A stretch of 64,000 nt of DNA from Tahibacter harae (GTDB taxonomy: Bacteria; Pseudomonadota; Gammaproteobacteria; Xanthomonadales; Rhodanobacteraceae): the NCBI RefSeq assembly GCF_024437735.1, contig NZ_JANFQO010000010.1:62001-126000 (forward strand), given 5' to 3'. The translations under genes and the position numbers were made by a program. The notes below the pieces were generated by a model. It ran no database searches, was not told the DNA's origin, and worked only from the letters and a program-made list of their open reading frames with translations. Positions 31,438 through 40,056 of the stretch are shown in pieces (positions within the stretch are counted from its first letter, which is position 1; each line of letters begins with the position of its first letter).

Positions 31438-32808
31438 ATGATCCGCAGAATCCGATACGCCGGCGCATTGCTGTGCCTGCTCGCCGCCGCCGATGCCTTC
31501 GCCGCCGCTACCGTCGATGCCGGCAAGTTCCTGCGCGAGGGGGGCCGCCATTCCGGCGCGCTGCGCCTGACCGGGGTCAAATCCGGCGCCACCACCGTCA
31601 GCCTGGATCTGCACCGTTTCGAGGTGTTCGCCCGCGACGTGCAGCTGCTCGCCGAAGACGGCCAGGGCAAGGCGCAGAAACTGCCGCGGCCGCATACGCG
31701 CTATTACAGCGGCAGCGTGGTCGAGACCGGCGCGGCGGTGTTTCTCGCGGTGGAGGAAGACGGCAGCGCCCGCGGCCTGGTCGATACCGACGGCCAGGCT
31801 TCCTCGCTGGACGCCGCCGCCGGCGGCGCGCTGAGCCTGAGCCCCATCGACGTGGACGCACCCAGCCGCGACGGCGGCTTCCGCTGCAGCGCCGACGAGC
31901 TGGCCCAGGCGCGCAACGTGATCGAGGACGCCCGCGCGTCCGTGCAGAACCAGGCGCAGCCCGCACCGCGCGGCACCCTGCCCTACCGCGCCCGCGCGGC
32001 GATAGAAACCGATTACCAGTTCTACCAGCGCTTCAACAACACCACCAACGCCACGCGCTATGTCGGCGACCTGATGGCCTATGCCTCGACCAAGTACCTG
32101 GCCGAAGTCAACACCCGCATCGAGATCGCGTTCCTGCGCCTGTGGACCGATGCCAACGATCCCTGGAACGAAACCACGTCGAACTGCAGCCTGTACGAGT
32201 TCGGTTCCTACTGGAACACGAACATGACCGGCGTATCGCGCACCTTCGCGCACATGCTCAGCGGCCGCACCACCGGCGGCGGCGTGGCCTGGGTGGGCAC
32301 GCTGTGCTCGGCGCCGTTCAATACCACGGTTTCCGGCTGCACCTTCGGCAATGGCACCCTGCGCGTGGGCGGCGACTACGGTTTCACCGGCAATATCAGC
32401 GGCGGCTTCAACGCGGCCAATCCGCAGGTGGTCTGGGATATCGTCGGCACCTCGCACGAAATCGGCCACAACTTCAATTCGCCGCATTCCCATTGCTACG
32501 CCAACGTCGGCGGCAATGCCGAGCCGGTGGACAAATGCTACGCCGGCCAGGCCGGCCAGACCGGCTGCTACAGCGGCTCCACCCAGCTGCCCGGGCCGGC
32601 CGGCCAGGGCAGCGGCACCATCATGAGCTACTGCCATCTGCTGTCGCCGGGCCTGTCCAATGTCAGCCTGAAGTTCGGCGCCGGCCATCCCTACGGCGTC
32701 GCGCCGGAACGCATACCTTCGCGCATGAGGGCGCGGATGGACAGCCTGGCCCAGTCCAATCCGGCCTGCGTGATCGACGATACGGTATTCGCCGACAGCT
32801 TCGACTGA
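31438..32808 (+). CDS. Secreted reprolysin-like zinc metallopeptidase with C-terminal FADSFD tag
   Basis: A 456-residue protein with a signal peptide (about 1-22, AFAAA). A propeptide-like N-terminal third is followed by a metzincin domain. The zinc site is TSHEIGHNFNSPHSH (about residue 339; HExxHxxxxxxxH) and the Met-turn is GTIMSYCH (about 394). Five or more cysteines suggest disulfides. The protein ends in VFADSFD, one of several similar short tags on exported proteins in this window. ATG 31438 follows GGGGGGAG. It is transcribed away from the defence operon. The substrate is unknown. Confidence 0.85.
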   Translation: MIRRIRYAGALLCLLAAADAFAAATVDAGKFLREGGRHSGALRLTGVKSGATTVSLDLHRFEVFARDVQLLAEDGQGKAQKLPRPHTRYYSGSVVETGAAVFLAVEEDGSARGLVDTDGQASSLDAAAGGALSLSPIDVDAPSRDGGFRCSADELAQARNVIEDARASVQNQAQPAPRGTLPYRARAAIETDYQFYQRFNNTTNATRYVGDLMAYASTKYLAEVNTRIEIAFLRLWTDANDPWNETTSNCSLYEFGSYWNTNMTGVSRTFAHMLSGRTTGGGVAWVGTLCSAPFNTTVSGCTFGNGTLRVGGDYGFTGNISGGFNAANPQVVWDIVGTSHEIGHNFNSPHSHCYANVGGNAEPVDKCYAGQAGQTGCYSGSTQLPGPAGQGSGTIMSYCHLLSPGLSNVSLKFGAGHPYGVAPERIPSRMRARMDSLAQSNPACVIDDTVFADSFD

Positions 32809-33724: not shown

Positions 33725-33923
33725 ACCGGCCGCCGCACCAATGCAATACAGGCAGCACCCTGCGCCGCGTTTTCCTGCGGCCGGGGACGCCCGCGATCCG
33801 CTGCGCGGCCTGCACCATGACATTTCGGCATGAGGCTCCGATGTGCGCGGCGGCGATGTCATAACCAGCCCCGGCCGGCCGGCGTCAGCGTTGCACGCAC
33901 CGGGAAAACGACCGGGGAGAACC

Positions 33924-34568
33924 ATGGGTCTGCTGCGAGTACTGCTGCTGGAGGACGACGCGCAGAGCCGCGATCTGCTGCGCGACAGCCTGGCCGCGCT
34001 GGAACGCGACGTGCACATCATCGAGGCAGCCAGCATCGCCGAGGCACGCCAGTGCCTGGCCCAGGCCCGCTTCGACCTGTTCCTGGCCGATCTGCGCCTG
34101 CCCGACGGCGAAAGCCTGGAGCTGGTCCGCCGGGTGCGCAGCCAGGCGCAGGCGCCGGCGGTGCTGGTGGTTTCGTCGCTGGCCGACGAGACCACCGTGG
34201 TGCGCGCCATCCTCGCCGGCGCCGGCGGCTATGTGTGCAAGCACGACCCCTTTGCCGAGATCACGCGGGCGCTCGCCGTCGCGCTGGACGGCGGCGCCTC
34301 CATCAGCCCGACCATCGCCCACCGTCTGCTCGTCCTGGTGCGCAGCCAGTGCGCCGACGTGGATGCCCTGGGCCGTATCGACCTGACGGCGCGGGAGAGC
34401 GAAGTGCTGCGGCTGGCCGCGCAGGGAAACACCTACCGCCAGATCGCCGAGCTGGCGGGCATCTCGCCGAGCACGGTGTACACCCACGTGCGCCACATCT
34501 ACGAAAAGCTGCACGTCTCCAGCCTGCAGGAGGCGCTGTATCAGGCGCGGCTGCGCCGGCTGGTATGA
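33924..34568 (+). CDS. NarL/FixJ-type response regulator
   Basis: A 214-residue two-domain regulator. The receiver domain has the acidic pocket LLLEDDAQ, the phospho-acceptor Asp in LFLADLRLPDGE (about residue 57), the Ser/Thr switch in VVSSLADE and the Lys in GYVCKHDP, all intact. The LuxR-type helix-turn-helix follows: LTARESEVLRLAAQGNTYRQIAELAGISPSTVYTHVRHIYEKL. ATG 33924 is preceded by GGGGAGA. The gene lies 19 bp before two sensor kinases that probably phosphorylate it. Recurrent ATTTGsGGATG sites nearby are candidate targets. Confidence 0.9.
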   Translation: MGLLRVLLLEDDAQSRDLLRDSLAALERDVHIIEAASIAEARQCLAQARFDLFLADLRLPDGESLELVRRVRSQAQAPAVLVVSSLADETTVVRAILAGAGGYVCKHDPFAEITRALAVALDGGASISPTIAHRLLVLVRSQCADVDALGRIDLTARESEVLRLAAQGNTYRQIAELAGISPSTVYTHVRHIYEKLHVSSLQEALYQARLRRLV

Positions 34569-34587
34569 AGCCCTGCGGAGCGCCCGG

Positions 34588-36372
34588 ATGAACGCCGCCC
34601 GCCACGCGAGCTGCCGCCTGCTGCGCCGCCTCGCCTTCGGCCTCAGCCTGGTATTCGCCATCGCGGCGGTGCTCGCGGCGTATCGCTACCGCGTTCCGGA
34701 AGGCGCCGTCTGTGCGATCGCGCCTCAGCGCATCGAGGCCGCGCCGGACAGCGCGCCGAGTGCCGTATCCGTGACGCGCTACCGCTTCGAATTCACGGCC
34801 CTACGCGCCGGCGACGCCGGGCTGGCCATTTCCATCGGCGAGGCCGTGCCCTTCTACCGGCTGCAGCTCAACGGCGCCGACCTGACCCCGCAGATCCTGC
34901 TCGAACGGCGCGACCTGCGCGATCTCGCGCCGCATTTCCACCGGCTGCCGCCCGATGTCGTGCGCGCCGGCCGCAATGTCGCCGTGCTTGAGCTGCCGGA
35001 CGACAGGGCGCTGGGCCGCCAGCGGCTGAGCCAGCTGTGCGCCGGCGACGCGGTCGCGCTGTACGCGGCGTTCCGCGCGAACTGGTGGCGCATGGTCGGC
35101 ATTCCGCGCCTGTGCGCGCTGGTACTCGGCATGCTGGCGCTGCTGGCCGCGGCGGGCTGGCTGCTCAGCGCCAGGCACACGGCCTATGCCTGGTATTTCG
35201 CCTGCATCCTGCTGATGCTGGTGCGCACGATCTACGTCTCCACCGGCGAGCGCCCGGGCACGCCGCTGCTCTGCGCCGCGATCGACTCCGTCGCGATCGC
35301 GCTGCAGCCGTATTTCTTCTATCGCTTCATGCGCGACTACTGGCATCTGCTGCTGCCGCTGCCCGCGGCCGTGGTGCGGATCGGCACCCTGCTCGCCCTG
35401 TGCAGCTGCGTGCTCATGGCGCTGCTGCCGCAGCTGCCCGGCGGCAGGCTGGTCTATCTCGGCGCGGTTCTCGTTTCCACCGGCGCCAGCCTGTTCGCGG
35501 TCGGCGCCGTGAGCTGCGGCGTGGGCCGGCTGCAGGGACGCGAGCACGGCGTGGCGTTGTGGACAGCGGTGTTTGCCTACGCGGTGGCCCTGCCCGAGAT
35601 CGCCAATCTGTTCCTGCCCTTCGAGCAGCGCTGGATGTGGACGGCGCCGGTGGCCCATGTGGCGCTGGCCGTGGGTTTCGGCCACCTGCTGCTGCGCCGG
35701 CTGGTGCTCGGCGCCGATCTGCTGCGCCACGCCGCCCGCGCCGCCGCCGACGACCTCGACGGCGACGCCGCGCCGGCCGAGGCCTGGACCCACCTGTCGG
35801 CGCGGCTGCGGCGGCGCGAGCGCGGACGCCTGATCCGCGACATTCACGACGGCTTCGGTTCGCGCCTGGTCGCGATCCTGCAGCGGGCGCGGCGCGAGGT
35901 GCCGCAGGCGGAGATCCAGCGCAGCCTGCAGCGCGCACTGCTGGACATGCGCCTGATGATCGACGCCCTGGATGAAAGCTCGCGCTCGCTGGGCGTGGCC
36001 CTGGCCGGCCTGCGCCACCGGCTGGAGCCGGTGCTCGCGCTGGCCGGCATCGCGGCGGACTGGCAGCTCAGCGGCATCGACGATGTACGCATCGACGACC
36101 GCCGCTGCCTGATCGGCCTGTTCCGCTGCGTGGAGGAACTGCTGGGCAATGCCGCCGTCTACGCCGGCTGCCGCGTGCTCGCCGTCGAAGTGCGGGTGAT
36201 CGACGAGGAACTGATGCTGCGCGTGAGCGACGCGGACAGCGGCGGCGACCGGCCGGTGCGCGGCGACATCGCCCCGCTGCGCGCGCTGGTGGAGCGCTAC
36301 GGCGGCCGCTGCTATGTCGCCGCGGCGGACGGCCGGCAGTTCGCCTGCACCCTTCAGTTTGCGCTGTTCTGA
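34588..36372 (+). CDS. Membrane sensor kinase subunit with phospho-acceptor His but degenerate ATP site
   Basis: A 594-residue protein. It has one N-terminal helix (about 12-32), a periplasmic beta-rich domain of about 130 residues (YRLQLNGADLTPQILLERRDLRDLAP), a 6-7 helix membrane bundle (about 165-375) similar to 7TM-DISM sensors, and a HisKA_3 domain RERGRLIRDIHDGFGSRL with His420. The C-terminal HATPase region keeps an N-box-like EELLGNAAVYA, but the D-box reads VSDADSGGDRP and the GxGL lid is replaced by RGDIAPLRALVERYGG, so ATP binding is doubtful. The stop overlaps the start of the second kinase (TGATG). It may accept phosphate from that partner and pass it to the response regulator. 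Confidence 0.8.
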   Translation: MNAARHASCRLLRRLAFGLSLVFAIAAVLAAYRYRVPEGAVCAIAPQRIEAAPDSAPSAVSVTRYRFEFTALRAGDAGLAISIGEAVPFYRLQLNGADLTPQILLERRDLRDLAPHFHRLPPDVVRAGRNVAVLELPDDRALGRQRLSQLCAGDAVALYAAFRANWWRMVGIPRLCALVLGMLALLAAAGWLLSARHTAYAWYFACILLMLVRTIYVSTGERPGTPLLCAAIDSVAIALQPYFFYRFMRDYWHLLLPLPAAVVRIGTLLALCSCVLMALLPQLPGGRLVYLGAVLVSTGASLFAVGAVSCGVGRLQGREHGVALWTAVFAYAVALPEIANLFLPFEQRWMWTAPVAHVALAVGFGHLLLRRLVLGADLLRHAARAAADDLDGDAAPAEAWTHLSARLRRRERGRLIRDIHDGFGSRLVAILQRARREVPQAEIQRSLQRALLDMRLMIDALDESSRSLGVALAGLRHRLEPVLALAGIAADWQLSGIDDVRIDDRRCLIGLFRCVEELLGNAAVYAGCRVLAVEVRVIDEELMLRVSDADSGGDRPVRGDIAPLRALVERYGGRCYVAAADGRQFACTLQFALF

Positions 36373-38222
36373 TGTGCGGACTGCGGCCGGCGCGGGAAGC
36401 TGGCACGGCCGCGGCCGGGCCGCTGCCACGGCGCAATTCGCTGACGCCGGCCGTCTGGTGGGGCAGCCTGCTGCTCGCACTGGCGCTGCTGGTGCTGGTC
36501 TACCGCCCCGCGCTGCCGCCGGGCTGCATCCGCCTGCTGCACGATGCCGCCGGCGTGCCGGTCACGCTGCCGCTCGCCCGCTTCGCCCGCGACACCGGGC
36601 GCGAAGTGATCAGCCTGCGGCACCGCTTCGACGCCGCCGCCGGAGCGCCGCAGCGCCCGGCGCTCTACCTGGGCGAAGCCGCGCCCTACTACCGGCTGGA
36701 GGTCAACGGCCGCGACCTCACGCCCGGCACCGACCTGGCGCAGGCCCGGCGCCGCGACCTGGCACCGCAGCTGCACGCGCTGCCGCGCGACCTGCTGCGG
36801 GTGCGCGGCAACGAACTGCTGCTGCAGGTGCCGCTGGACCGCCGCCTCAGCGAGACGCGCGTGGATACGCTGTGCCTGGGCGACTACAGCCTGCTCGCCG
36901 CGCTGCACAGCGCCAACTGGTGGCGGCGCAGCGGCACGCCGCGGGTGGCGCTGTGCCTGTACGCACTGCTGGCCGGCATCGTGTTCGCCCTGCGCGGCGT
37001 CTACCGCAACGCACCGCTGTACCGCTGGTACCTGGCCTGCCTCGCCCTGATGGCGCTGCGCTGCAGCTACCTCGCCGGCGGCGACATGCCCGGCGCGCCG
37101 GAATACTGGCGCGCCGCCAGCGACAGCAGCGTCGTACTTCTGGTTTATGCCATCTACCGGCTGCTGACGACGCTGTGGCAGATCCGCGAGCCGCGCCGCC
37201 ACGAAGCCGCCCTGCTGCTCACCGCGGCACTGCAGGTGGCTGCGCTGTGGTCGGGCTGGACGCTGGCGCTGCCGGCGGCGAACCTGCTGCTGTGGATCAG
37301 CGTGTGCGCCGGTGCGGGCTGGATGATGGCGCGCATCGCCGCCCGCGCCAGCCATGTGCCGGCCGTGGAGAAGCATCTGCTGCACTGGGCCATGCTGTTC
37401 GCCGTCGTCAGCGGCATGCTGGAGGCGGCGACCTACCGGCTGGATCCGGCCTGGCGGCTGATCTGGCTGTATCCGGTGGGCACGGCGACGCTGGCGCTGG
37501 CCTTCGGTTTCCTGCTCACGCGCCGCGCACTGCTCGGCGGACGCCTGCTCGCCCATGCGCGCCAGTCGCTGGGGCGCGATCTGGATCTCACCCTGCTCGC
37601 CTGCGCCGACCGGGCCGACGCGGTCTGGGACAGCCTGAGCACGCGCGTGGCAAGCCAGGAACGCGAGCGCGTGCTGCTGGACATCGGCGCCGGCTTCGGC
37701 GCGCGCATGGCGCGCATCGCCCAGGAGCTGCGCCGCCTGCAGCCGCAGTCGCGCCTGCCGCTGGATATCCACCGTGCCCTGCTCGACCTGCGTCTGATGA
37801 TAGACGCCACGGACCTGGACCTGACCAGCGCCGACGATGCCTTCGTCCTGCTGCGCCGGCATCTGGATCCGGCGCTCGCTGCCGCCGGAATCAGTGCACA
37901 TTGGGATTTGTCCGCACTGCGCGAACTGCGCCTCGGCGACCGCCGCCGGCTGATGGAACTGTTCCGCTGCCTGGAGGAACTGCTCAGCAACGTCATGCAG
38001 CACTCGGCGGCGCGCCAGGTCGCGGTTACCTGCGGCTTCGCCGGCGGCTGGCTGCGCGTCGCGGTCACCGACAACGGCCGCGGCCTGCCGGAGGGCGCCA
38101 CGCAGGGCCGCGGCCTGGCCAATGTGGCAGCGCGCCTGCGCGCGCTGGACGGCGAGGCCGCATTCTCCACGCCGCCGCTGCATCCGGGCACGCAGGTGGA
38201 AATCGCCGTGCCCTGGCGCTGA
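36372..38222 (+). CDS. Membrane sensor kinase subunit with intact ATP site but no phospho-acceptor His
   Basis: A 616-residue paralogue of the preceding kinase with the same plan: N-terminal helix, periplasmic domain (YYRLEVNGRDLTPGTDLAQARRRDLAP), membrane bundle and HisKA_3 plus HATPase. The phospho-acceptor segment reads RERVLLDIGAGFGARM, so Gly439 and Ala440 stand where the partner has His420 and Asp421. The ATP-binding half is complete: EELLSNVMQHS (N box), VTDNGRGLPEG (D box) and GRGLANVAARL (G box). It could bind ATP but not phosphorylate itself at the usual site, and would have to act on the partner in trans. It is translationally coupled to the partner gene by a TGATG overlap. Confidence 0.8.
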   Translation: MCGLRPAREAGTAAAGPLPRRNSLTPAVWWGSLLLALALLVLVYRPALPPGCIRLLHDAAGVPVTLPLARFARDTGREVISLRHRFDAAAGAPQRPALYLGEAAPYYRLEVNGRDLTPGTDLAQARRRDLAPQLHALPRDLLRVRGNELLLQVPLDRRLSETRVDTLCLGDYSLLAALHSANWWRRSGTPRVALCLYALLAGIVFALRGVYRNAPLYRWYLACLALMALRCSYLAGGDMPGAPEYWRAASDSSVVLLVYAIYRLLTTLWQIREPRRHEAALLLTAALQVAALWSGWTLALPAANLLLWISVCAGAGWMMARIAARASHVPAVEKHLLHWAMLFAVVSGMLEAATYRLDPAWRLIWLYPVGTATLALAFGFLLTRRALLGGRLLAHARQSLGRDLDLTLLACADRADAVWDSLSTRVASQERERVLLDIGAGFGARMARIAQELRRLQPQSRLPLDIHRALLDLRLMIDATDLDLTSADDAFVLLRRHLDPALAAAGISAHWDLSALRELRLGDRRRLMELFRCLEELLSNVMQHSAARQVAVTCGFAGGWLRVAVTDNGRGLPEGATQGRGLANVAARLRALDGEAAFSTPPLHPGTQVEIAVPWR

Positions 38223-38338: not shown

Positions 38339-38469
38339 GCGCCGGCGGGTGCCGCGGCTAGGCTCCGGCACGAATGCGCTGCAGCGCCAGCGCGCCACCC
38401 CGGCGGCAGTCGCGCTCAGAGCGGCCGCCGCCGCAATCCCGCTTCCTGTCCCGATTCACTGGAAACCCT

Positions 38470-40056
38470 ATGCCCGCCTGTCGCCTGCACCCCATCATGG
38501 CCGTACTGCTGCTTACGACCGTCCCGGCGCAGGCCGTGGTGGTGGACAGCGGTCCCGTCGCCATCCCTGTCACCGCAGACGCGAACGGCATCCATCTGAA
38601 CCTGGTCGACGGCAGCACACTGCCGGCGGGCAGCGATCTGCATATCGTCGCCGACGCCGGCGGCCGGCTGAGCTTCGCCGCCGGCGCGGCGGCGGCCGTC
38701 CTGGTCCGCGACGGTGCCGTGGCCTCGCTGGACGAAAGCCTTGCCGTCGCCCCGGCCGCCAGCTACGCCAGCAGCGGCATCCTTGCTCCGGGCCGGCTGC
38801 TCGCCGGCGGCGTGCACCACATCGGCCTGCGCTTCGTCGACGAAGCCGGCGGCGCGACGCGCTACGGCTACGTGCAGCTGCGCACCACCGCGCCGCTGGG
38901 CTATCCGGCCACACTGCTGCGCTACGCCTATGAAACCGCGGGCGCCGCGATCACGGTGCCGGGCGAATCGCGCCTGTTCAGCGATACCTTCCAGACCTTC
39001 ACGGCTGATTCCTGCGAGCCCGCCGCCGTGGCCGAACAGGCCGGCAAGGCCGTGAACCCCGGCAGCACCGTGCTGATTCCGGCCGGCGACTGCGAATGGC
39101 AGGACGAACAGGTCACCTTCGCCCCCGGCGTCAGCGTGCGCGGCGCCGGCCGCGGCCGCACGATCCTGCGCCGCAAGCTGGCCATGCCGGACTGGACCAA
39201 TGCTCTGCTGCACCTGCGCTGCGACGGCGGCCGCGCCGGCGGCGTGGCCGACCTTACGCTCATCGGCAATGCCATCGAGGCCGATTTGGACAACGGCATC
39301 TGGCTGGACGGCCGCTGCCTGGATTTCACCGTGCGCGATGTCCGCGCCAGCGGCTTCTCCAATGCCGGCATCCAGGTCAGGGGGCACGACCCGCGCGGCG
39401 TGATCTACCGCAGCGAGCTGCTGTCGAATTTCCGCTGCGCCGGCGGCTGCTACGGCTACGGTGTGGTGGTCTACAGCGACGCCGATCCGGAGGGACCGCC
39501 CATGCCGCCGCTGGCCCTGGGCAGCGCCGACGCGGTATTCATCGAAGACAGCTATTTCGCCGACAACCGCCACGCCGTCGCCTCCAACCACGGCTCGCGC
39601 TACGTGTTCCGCCACAACACCGTGCTCACCACGGCACGCACGCGCGGCACCGGCATGATCGACGCGCACGGCGCCGGCAATACCGGGGAACACGGCTCGC
39701 GCAGCTACGAGATCTACGCCAACTACCTCGGCGTGGATACCCGCGTCATGCAGACCGCCGACGGCATCGTCATCCGCGGCGGCGACGGCGTGGTATTCGA
39801 CAACGTGATGCCGTGGATGCCGTACGAGCTGCGCCTGCGCAACGAGGTGTGCAGCGGCACCTACCCGCTGCACGACCAGCCGCGCGAAGTCCACCTGTGG
39901 AACAACCGGTTCACGCCGCGGCCGGATATCTACGGCCCGACCGGAGCGGTCTGGGTCGATGCCGCCTGCGTGCCCTACATCGTGGAGAACCGCGACTATT
40001 ACCGTTTTCCCCGGCCGGGCTACCTGCCCTACGCCTATCCCCACCCGCTGCGCTGA
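38470..40056 (+). CDS. Secreted two-domain protein with right-handed beta-helix domain
   Basis: A 528-residue protein with a signal peptide (about 1-23, PAQA). Residues about 24-170 form a compact beta-rich module. It ends in RLFSDTFQ, which looks like the short tag that closes other exported proteins of this genome, but here it is internal. Residues about 185-520 form a parallel beta-helix: repeated DFTVRDVRASGFSNAGIQVRG, AVFIEDSYFADNRHAV and YVFRHNTV turns typical of pectate-lyase-like and NosD-like folds. No clear catalytic Asp/Lys triad was identified, so enzyme activity is uncertain. It could bind or cleave polysaccharides. Confidence 0.7.
   Translation: MPACRLHPIMAVLLLTTVPAQAVVVDSGPVAIPVTADANGIHLNLVDGSTLPAGSDLHIVADAGGRLSFAAGAAAAVLVRDGAVASLDESLAVAPAASYASSGILAPGRLLAGGVHHIGLRFVDEAGGATRYGYVQLRTTAPLGYPATLLRYAYETAGAAITVPGESRLFSDTFQTFTADSCEPAAVAEQAGKAVNPGSTVLIPAGDCEWQDEQVTFAPGVSVRGAGRGRTILRRKLAMPDWTNALLHLRCDGGRAGGVADLTLIGNAIEADLDNGIWLDGRCLDFTVRDVRASGFSNAGIQVRGHDPRGVIYRSELLSNFRCAGGCYGYGVVVYSDADPEGPPMPPLALGSADAVFIEDSYFADNRHAVASNHGSRYVFRHNTVLTTARTRGTGMIDAHGAGNTGEHGSRSYEIYANYLGVDTRVMQTADGIVIRGGDGVVFDNVMPWMPYELRLRNEVCSGTYPLHDQPREVHLWNNRFTPRPDIYGPTGAVWVDAACVPYIVENRDYYRFPRPGYLPYAYPHPLR

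Follow-up and report, generated by a model that had tools for sequence, protein, structure and literature searches.

The window analysed here, a stretch of 64,000 nucleotides from Tahibacter harae, contains an operon of three genes, all on the + strand (33924-38222), which encodes a response regulator (RR) followed by two sensor histidine kinases, HK1 and HK2. The two kinases are paralogues with 35 % identity over 532 aa, and the stop codon of HK1 overlaps the start codon of HK2, which makes translational coupling of the two genes probable. The first-pass annotation had read them as a likely split histidine kinase with complementary defects, and it had placed both genes and their motifs correctly. 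The features of the operon are:

33924..34568, + strand: RR, a NarL/FixJ-type response regulator (REC domain and LuxR/GerE helix-turn-helix), with Pfam Response_reg and GerE over cut-off
34588..36372, + strand: HK1, 594 aa, His-bearing, CA-defective sensor kinase
35845..35847, + strand: codon of HK1 His420, the phospho-acceptor in DIHDGFG, invariant in 6/6 HK1
36229..36285, + strand: degenerate D and G boxes of HK1 (DADSGGDRPVRGDIAPLRA), with the first D-box Gly and the second G-box Gly replaced
36370..36374, + strand: TGATG overlap of the HK1 stop (TGA) and the HK2 start (ATG), read from the sequence
36372..38222, + strand: HK2, 616 aa, His-less sensor kinase with complete CA boxes
37686..37688, + strand: codon of HK2 Gly439 at the acceptor-His position (DIGAGFG), from the sequence alignment
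37974..38138, + strand: complete N, D and G boxes of HK2 (EELLSNVMQHS, DNGRGLPEG, GRGLANVAARL)

The D box of HK1 reads SDADSGGDRP and its G box RGDIAPLR. The N-box His, upstream of the D box, is replaced by Tyr, while the N-box Asn and the D-box Asp are still there. The Pfam model HATPase_c gave 15.8 bits for HK1 and 35.8 bits for HK2 (cut-off 26.4). The threshold of HisKA_3 was reached by neither protein, with HK1 scoring 12 bits (cut-off 24) and HK2 absent from the match list. The adjoining regulator has the REC domain and LuxR-type helix-turn-helix found in HisKA_3/NarL-type two-component systems. Given the sub-threshold Pfam scores and the resemblance of the predicted structures to DesK, HK1 and HK2 are best termed HisKA_3-like.

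Regarding the RR, the acceptor Asp (LADLRLPDG), the acidic pocket and the Ser and Lys are all present, and the active-site pocket residues, read by eye, are intact in 6/6 orthologues. The earlier description of an intact regulator just upstream of the kinases therefore holds. We chose the ATG at 33924 as the start of the gene; a longer frame with a GTG start (33843-34568) is in the list of open reading frames. The Pfam run used 33927-34565, i.e. the gene without its first codon.

AlphaFold models of both kinases, built from nine-row alignments, had a mean predicted local distance difference test score (pLDDT) of 76.5 for HK1 and 76.0 for HK2. Both start with a helix, which is followed by a beta-rich domain, by seven long helices, by a helical DHp region (low confidence) and by a CA domain. 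From this layout we infer that the beta-rich domain is periplasmic, that the seven helices lie in the membrane and that DHp and CA are cytoplasmic. The first-pass annotation had mentioned neither the seven helices nor the retained N-box Asn and D-box Asp of HK1. Receptors of the 7TMR-DISM kind carry a beta domain outside the cytoplasm and then seven TM helices; here the beta-rich stretch and the long helices are seen in the models only, and neither 7TMR-DISM nor any other membrane-receptor model of Pfam matched HK1 or HK2. The HK2 model matches the ATP-binding domain of DesK (3ehg; TMt 0.81, root mean square deviation 2.5). With the HK2 model the best hits are DesK structures, which also rank among the top hits of the HK1 model; by sequence profile, DevS and a GAF protein come ahead of them. 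The HK1 model still matches CA domains of kinases, e.g. PhoQ (TMt 0.59-0.65), which suggests that residues of HK1 were lost while its fold was kept.

Paired orthologues and unpaired relatives

We searched 233 genomes of the family with HK1 (E <= 1e-20, at most five candidates scored per genome). Ten genomes matched, and six of them, the window's included, had strong matches to both genes. The remaining four had one weak match each, to an unpaired relative. HK1-HK2 pairs occur in two of the eight genomes of the window's genus and in four of the 16 genomes of a second genus; the pair-bearing genomes include Tahibacter aquaticus DSM 21667 (G226) and one labelled Dokdonella sp. (G039). No genome with a strong match carried HK1 or HK2 without its partner. 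All five genomes with both genes on one contig share one gene order, and in G035 the two genes lie at the ends of two contigs, HK1 being cut by the contig end beyond the scored box positions. At the level of the order, a search of 398 drawn genomes with HK2 (E <= 1e-15) gave matches in 47, five pair-bearers included, and showed a wide gap between pair members (at least 216 bits) and the 50 other matches (at most 103 bits). Among 369 drawn genomes of the class, a joint profile (E <= 1e-40) recovered no further pair, only the pair itself and two unpaired relatives, which by eye keep the His motif and the N, D and G boxes.

The acceptor His and the Asp next to it are present in 6/6 HK1. The loss of the acceptor His from HK2 is common to all six pairs (0/6), the position being taken by G, D, Q, N, D and D. 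An alternative acceptor residue in HK2 was rejected, as this site has no consistent replacement. All residues scored in the CA domain of HK2 (N-box Glu, Asn and His, D-box Asp and two Gly, G-box two Gly) are kept in 6/6. The full set is found in only one of the six HK1, that of T. aquaticus, and the boxes are broken in the other five. The four HK1 of the second genus have lost the N-box Asn (replaced by D, E, E and E), the D-box Asp and, as aligned, both G-box Gly. In five of the six pairs, including that of the window, the acceptor His and the complete CA boxes are on different proteins. What had been claimed of HK2 and of the His of HK1 thus extends to every pair, and the broken CA domain of HK1 to five of them. 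Likewise, the claim that neither protein works alone agrees with the residue pattern of these five pairs and is not universal, since the T. aquaticus HK1 keeps both halves.

The comparison of orthologous RR-HK-HK operons had itself been proposed as a check, and the main part of the claim survives it. A recent local mutation as the cause of the defects in the window is ruled out by the orthologues, the second genus having lost different residues. A frameshift or sequencing error behind the HK1 defect is unlikely for the same reason and because the C-terminus of HK1 is in frame with its orthologues. This C-terminus (36358-36369) ends in Leu-Phe or Met-Phe in the five orthologues with a complete end, though most of the CA domains are degenerate, and is perhaps a retained packing or contact site.

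For comparison we used 28 unpaired relatives, namely the 25 better-scoring of the 50 non-pair order matches and three from the family search. The His, the following Asp, the N-box residues, the D-box Asp and first Gly and both G-box Gly are kept in 28/28 and the second D-box Gly in 27/28, hence every scored residue is kept in 27 of the 28. A regulator was detectable beside the kinase in 23 of the 25 unpaired loci looked at. Regarding the window's own genome, 15 proteins matched HisKA_3 at E <= 1, one of them HK1, and we read eight others (seven that passed the cut-off and the highest-scoring of those that did not). All eight have the His and recognisable N, D and G boxes, and one (L076, DDGHR) has an incomplete D box. 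As both the unpaired relatives and the same-genome kinases keep the His and the boxes, and the pattern is repeated in five further genomes with one HK1 exception, the defects of HK1 and HK2 are more than chance. Single RR-HK operons related to the pair (L044-L068) are widespread in the order, and the pair and its order-level relatives perhaps form an unnamed sensor family.

We also read the region of the HDxxxQ phosphatase motif in HK1 (35845-35862), HK2 (37686-37703) and the 28 unpaired relatives. None of the 40 aligned kinases has the Gln: its position is taken by Ser in all six HK1, by Ala in all six HK2 and by Gly or Ser in all 28 relatives. The classical HisKA_3 phosphatase activity may therefore be missing in the whole group, and the signal may be switched off in a different way than in DesK.

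Crossed constraint and history of the pair

Profiles of the DHp and CA domains were built from the 28 unpaired relatives, which were themselves scored leave-one-out. With the DHp profile, HK1 proteins scored 53-64 bits, about at the edge of the range of the relatives (minimum 57.8), and HK2 proteins 30-41 bits. With the CA profile, HK1 proteins scored 16-85 bits and HK2 proteins 98-107 bits (minimum of the relatives 113.9). By both scores HK1 and HK2 form non-overlapping sets, HK1 being the higher with DHp and HK2 with CA. Domain-wise rates, taken as summed branch lengths on a fixed tree (40 bootstraps, 5-95 % ranges), show the same crossing. The HK1/HK2 ratio of summed lengths is 0.92 for the sensor and 0.99 for the transmembrane part, 0.59 for DHp (0.43-0.82), which is slower in HK1, and 1.43 for CA (1.13-1.73), which is faster in HK1. 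Each protein is thus held more strictly where its function is kept, and a division of labour would fit these rates better than the decay of one whole gene. Moreover, the alignments show that the dimer helices of HK2 are still conserved despite the loss of the His.

In a full-length tree of 40 rows with a midpoint root, the pair proteins form one clade (100/100), divided into an HK1 group (100/99) and an HK2 group (98/93). Both groups show the same internal branching, which points to one duplication followed by joint inheritance. The T. aquaticus HK1, with all scored residues, is sister to the defective HK1 of the window in the full-length tree (99/98) and again (100/98) when DHp and CA are left out of the tree. 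A single loss of CA in HK1 was rejected, as one clade of the five CA-defective HK1 is not accepted on the tree of sensor and transmembrane parts (approximately unbiased test, p-AU 0.007); this test is limited by the full-length tree having been seen before the group was named and by a long-branch warning for an outgroup row. If the boxes were regained in T. aquaticus, a single change would suffice by unweighted counting. Since the 28 relatives have intact or almost intact boxes, we judged two CA losses to be more likely. In the tree of sensor and transmembrane parts a rival fork (83/97) keeps HK2 from being clearly a single clade below the outgroup, unlike in the full-length tree, and the two groups themselves are therefore more certain than the position of the root between them.

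Probably, HK2 lost its His first and the CA domain of HK1 decayed later and twice, unless T. aquaticus regained its boxes. On the alignments, T. aquaticus looks like an intermediate. Its HK1 CA domain scores 84.6 bits, less than any of the relatives or of the six HK2, and reaches 22.5 with HATPase_c, under the Pfam cut-off, so that "complete" describes the residues and not a proven activity.

Two neighbouring genes lie outside the operon as delimited above:

38461..40056, + strand: gene of a beta-helix-like protein directly downstream of HK2, predicted, with a chosen frame start
31450-32808, + strand: gene of a reprolysin-like (M12B) metallopeptidase, upstream of the operon

The product of the downstream gene scored 22.9 bits with Pfam Beta_helix, under the cut-off of 25.9. 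A 57 % identical frame lies at the same place after HK2 in T. aquaticus (L025:9815-11377), and no match was found in the two downstream flanks of the second genus that we compared (L027, L028). The gene is a candidate operon member or target in the window's genus.

A proposed divided kinase and the rival explanations

The reciprocal losses, their conservation, the joint inheritance of the two genes and the crossed rates can be read directly from the sequences. From them we infer heterodimerisation, phosphorylation in trans, transfer to the RR and the order of the losses. In the scheme we propose, the sensor kinase of an ancestral RR-kinase operon was duplicated and the two copies would have come to form a heterodimer with divided labour. 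The CA domain of HK2 would bind ATP and phosphorylate His420 of HK1 in trans, and HK1 would hand the phosphate on to the regulator encoded first in the operon. The His of HK2 would have been lost first and the ATP lid of HK1 would have decayed after it, probably independently in the window's lineage and in the second genus, so that in five of the six known pairs neither protein should autophosphorylate alone. We consider this heterodimer the best explanation of the data, with a probability of about 0.7, and the split-kinase interpretation is supported in its main part. As both sensors are full-length and diverged, it is possible that two different signals are sensed. The wider proposal, in which a duplicated receptor kinase became an obligate heterodimer by stepwise reciprocal loss, in the manner of a natural ratchet towards interdependence (with T. 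aquaticus as the intermediate and CA losses in two genera) and may serve as an AND gate for two periplasmic signals, is tentative, and we would put it somewhat short of even odds.

Several observations weigh against the trans-phosphorylating heterodimer. The T. aquaticus HK1 has all scored catalytic residues, and HK2 may there only modulate it. The CA domain of HK2, complete in its residues, scores below all 28 relatives (97.6-106.8 against at least 113.9 bits), so its catalytic activity is not assured. Conversely, the CA domain of HK1 is still constrained, as its summed length (4.89) slightly exceeds that of the sensor (4.33), and since it is also predicted to fold it may still serve a separate role. 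If the kinases of this group act only in cis, as ArcB, EvgS and MtrB are reported to do (PMC4734776, PMC5956149), a strict heterodimer would not work; the loop rule for cis or trans action is called into doubt for NarQ/NarX, members of the HisKA_3 class (PMC8199190), and the DHp part, which bears on this handedness, has low pLDDT in both of our models. Finally, only six pairs are known.

The strongest rival, still unlikely in our view, is that HK2 is a nucleotide-dependent regulatory pseudokinase, which binds ATP and dimerises with HK1 without phosphotransfer. HK1, where intact, would then charge itself or else receive its phosphate from a different kinase. The residue-complete HK1 of T. aquaticus would suit this role, and sensors of such a kind are described: RetS, with a degenerate HATPase, regulates GacS (PMC5992135), and DivL is named a pseudo-histidine kinase regulating CckA (PMC9430884). 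However, in five of the six pairs an HK1 without lid residues needs a source of phosphate, and no gene of the operon other than HK2 has complete CA boxes; moreover, HK2 retains every scored catalytic residue in 6/6, the lid glycines included.

Two further explanations appear very improbable to us. In one of them the CA domain of HK1 is unusual but active, its homodimer works alone and HK2 is a decaying duplicate. The N-box Asn and D-box Asp retained in the window's HK1 and its predicted CA fold would allow this, but both residues are lost in 4/4 HK1 of the second genus, and HK2 as a dying copy was rejected, as its CA domain evolves more slowly than that of HK1 and its frame is open in 6/6. According to the other, equally remote, HK1 is no longer a kinase substrate and the operon is a phosphatase or sequestration device acting on the regulator. 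The conserved DHp of HK1 could indeed dock the regulator, and CheA3 of Rhodobacter sphaeroides is described as both acceptor and phosphatase (PMC3591291). The substitution of the HDxxxQ Gln (motif from PMC6798134) in every HK1, HK2 and unpaired relative speaks against a phosphatase, and the complete CA boxes of HK2 would have no evident use.

Relation to known systems

Split histidine kinases are a known, rare kind. In the M. tuberculosis HK1/HK2-TcrA system, which the first-pass annotation gave as the precedent, the halves are separate domains, not two complete sensors. That system resembles ours in that two kinases and a regulator are tabulated as one two-component system (PMC8965865). Better-documented precedents are CheA3/CheA4 and the complementation of EnvZ mutants. 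In R. sphaeroides CheA3/CheA4 the acceptor His and the CA domain are on different polypeptides, only the mixture is reported to autophosphorylate, and one regulator is served; the same account counts 11 split CheAs against 470 complete ones (PMC3591291). As described there, whole domains are gone (CheA3 is without P3/P4, CheA4 without P1) and the genes belong to a cytoplasmic chemotaxis cluster, whereas HK1 and HK2 are full-length membrane sensors which have both domains and have lost residues. Synechocystis Hik36/Hik43 is likewise a histidine kinase spread over two genes, for which a two-hybrid interaction is reported; the portion of that account drawn on here gives a CheA-type HPt/CA division and genes far apart, with no reciprocal loss between full-length paralogues (PMC7656254).

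The RetS-GacS system of Pseudomonas aeruginosa is similar in that one sensor, whose HATPase is degenerate and has no G boxes, acts upon a second sensor kinase. It differs in that RetS antagonises a kinase complete by itself, and no reciprocal loss appears in what we draw from this source (PMC5992135). The DesK-type HisKA_3 kinases share with our pair the structural matches to the models and the NarL-type regulator partner, but HK1 and HK2 lack the Gln of HDxxxQ and their HisKA_3 Pfam matches are under the cut-off or unlisted. DivL, which has a Tyr at the acceptor-His site, is unlike HK2, where no one residue is used consistently at this position.

New here are full-length paralogous membrane sensors with reciprocal losses at the level of residues, in one operon, in two genera and with an apparent intermediate. 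In the open-licence literature, covered for several rankings by their top matches, we found no description of such a full-length sensor pair or of an RR-HK1-HK2 operon. If our interpretation is true, the pair is a compact design for two-input sensing, and the evolution of obligate signalling heterodimers becomes directly testable, as the T. aquaticus HK1 should work alone and the window's should not. The closest parallel in the kind of defects is the EnvZ G2*/H243A heterodimer, in which the same two kinds complement in trans after subunit exchange in vitro; ArcB and EvgS mutants did not complement in the same study (PMC4734776). There the subunits are described as engineered mutants of one protein, whereas HK1 and HK2 are natural, diverged and conserved (PMC4734776). 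The pair would then be a natural version of the EnvZ complementation experiment, in which the species differ in how far independence has been lost.

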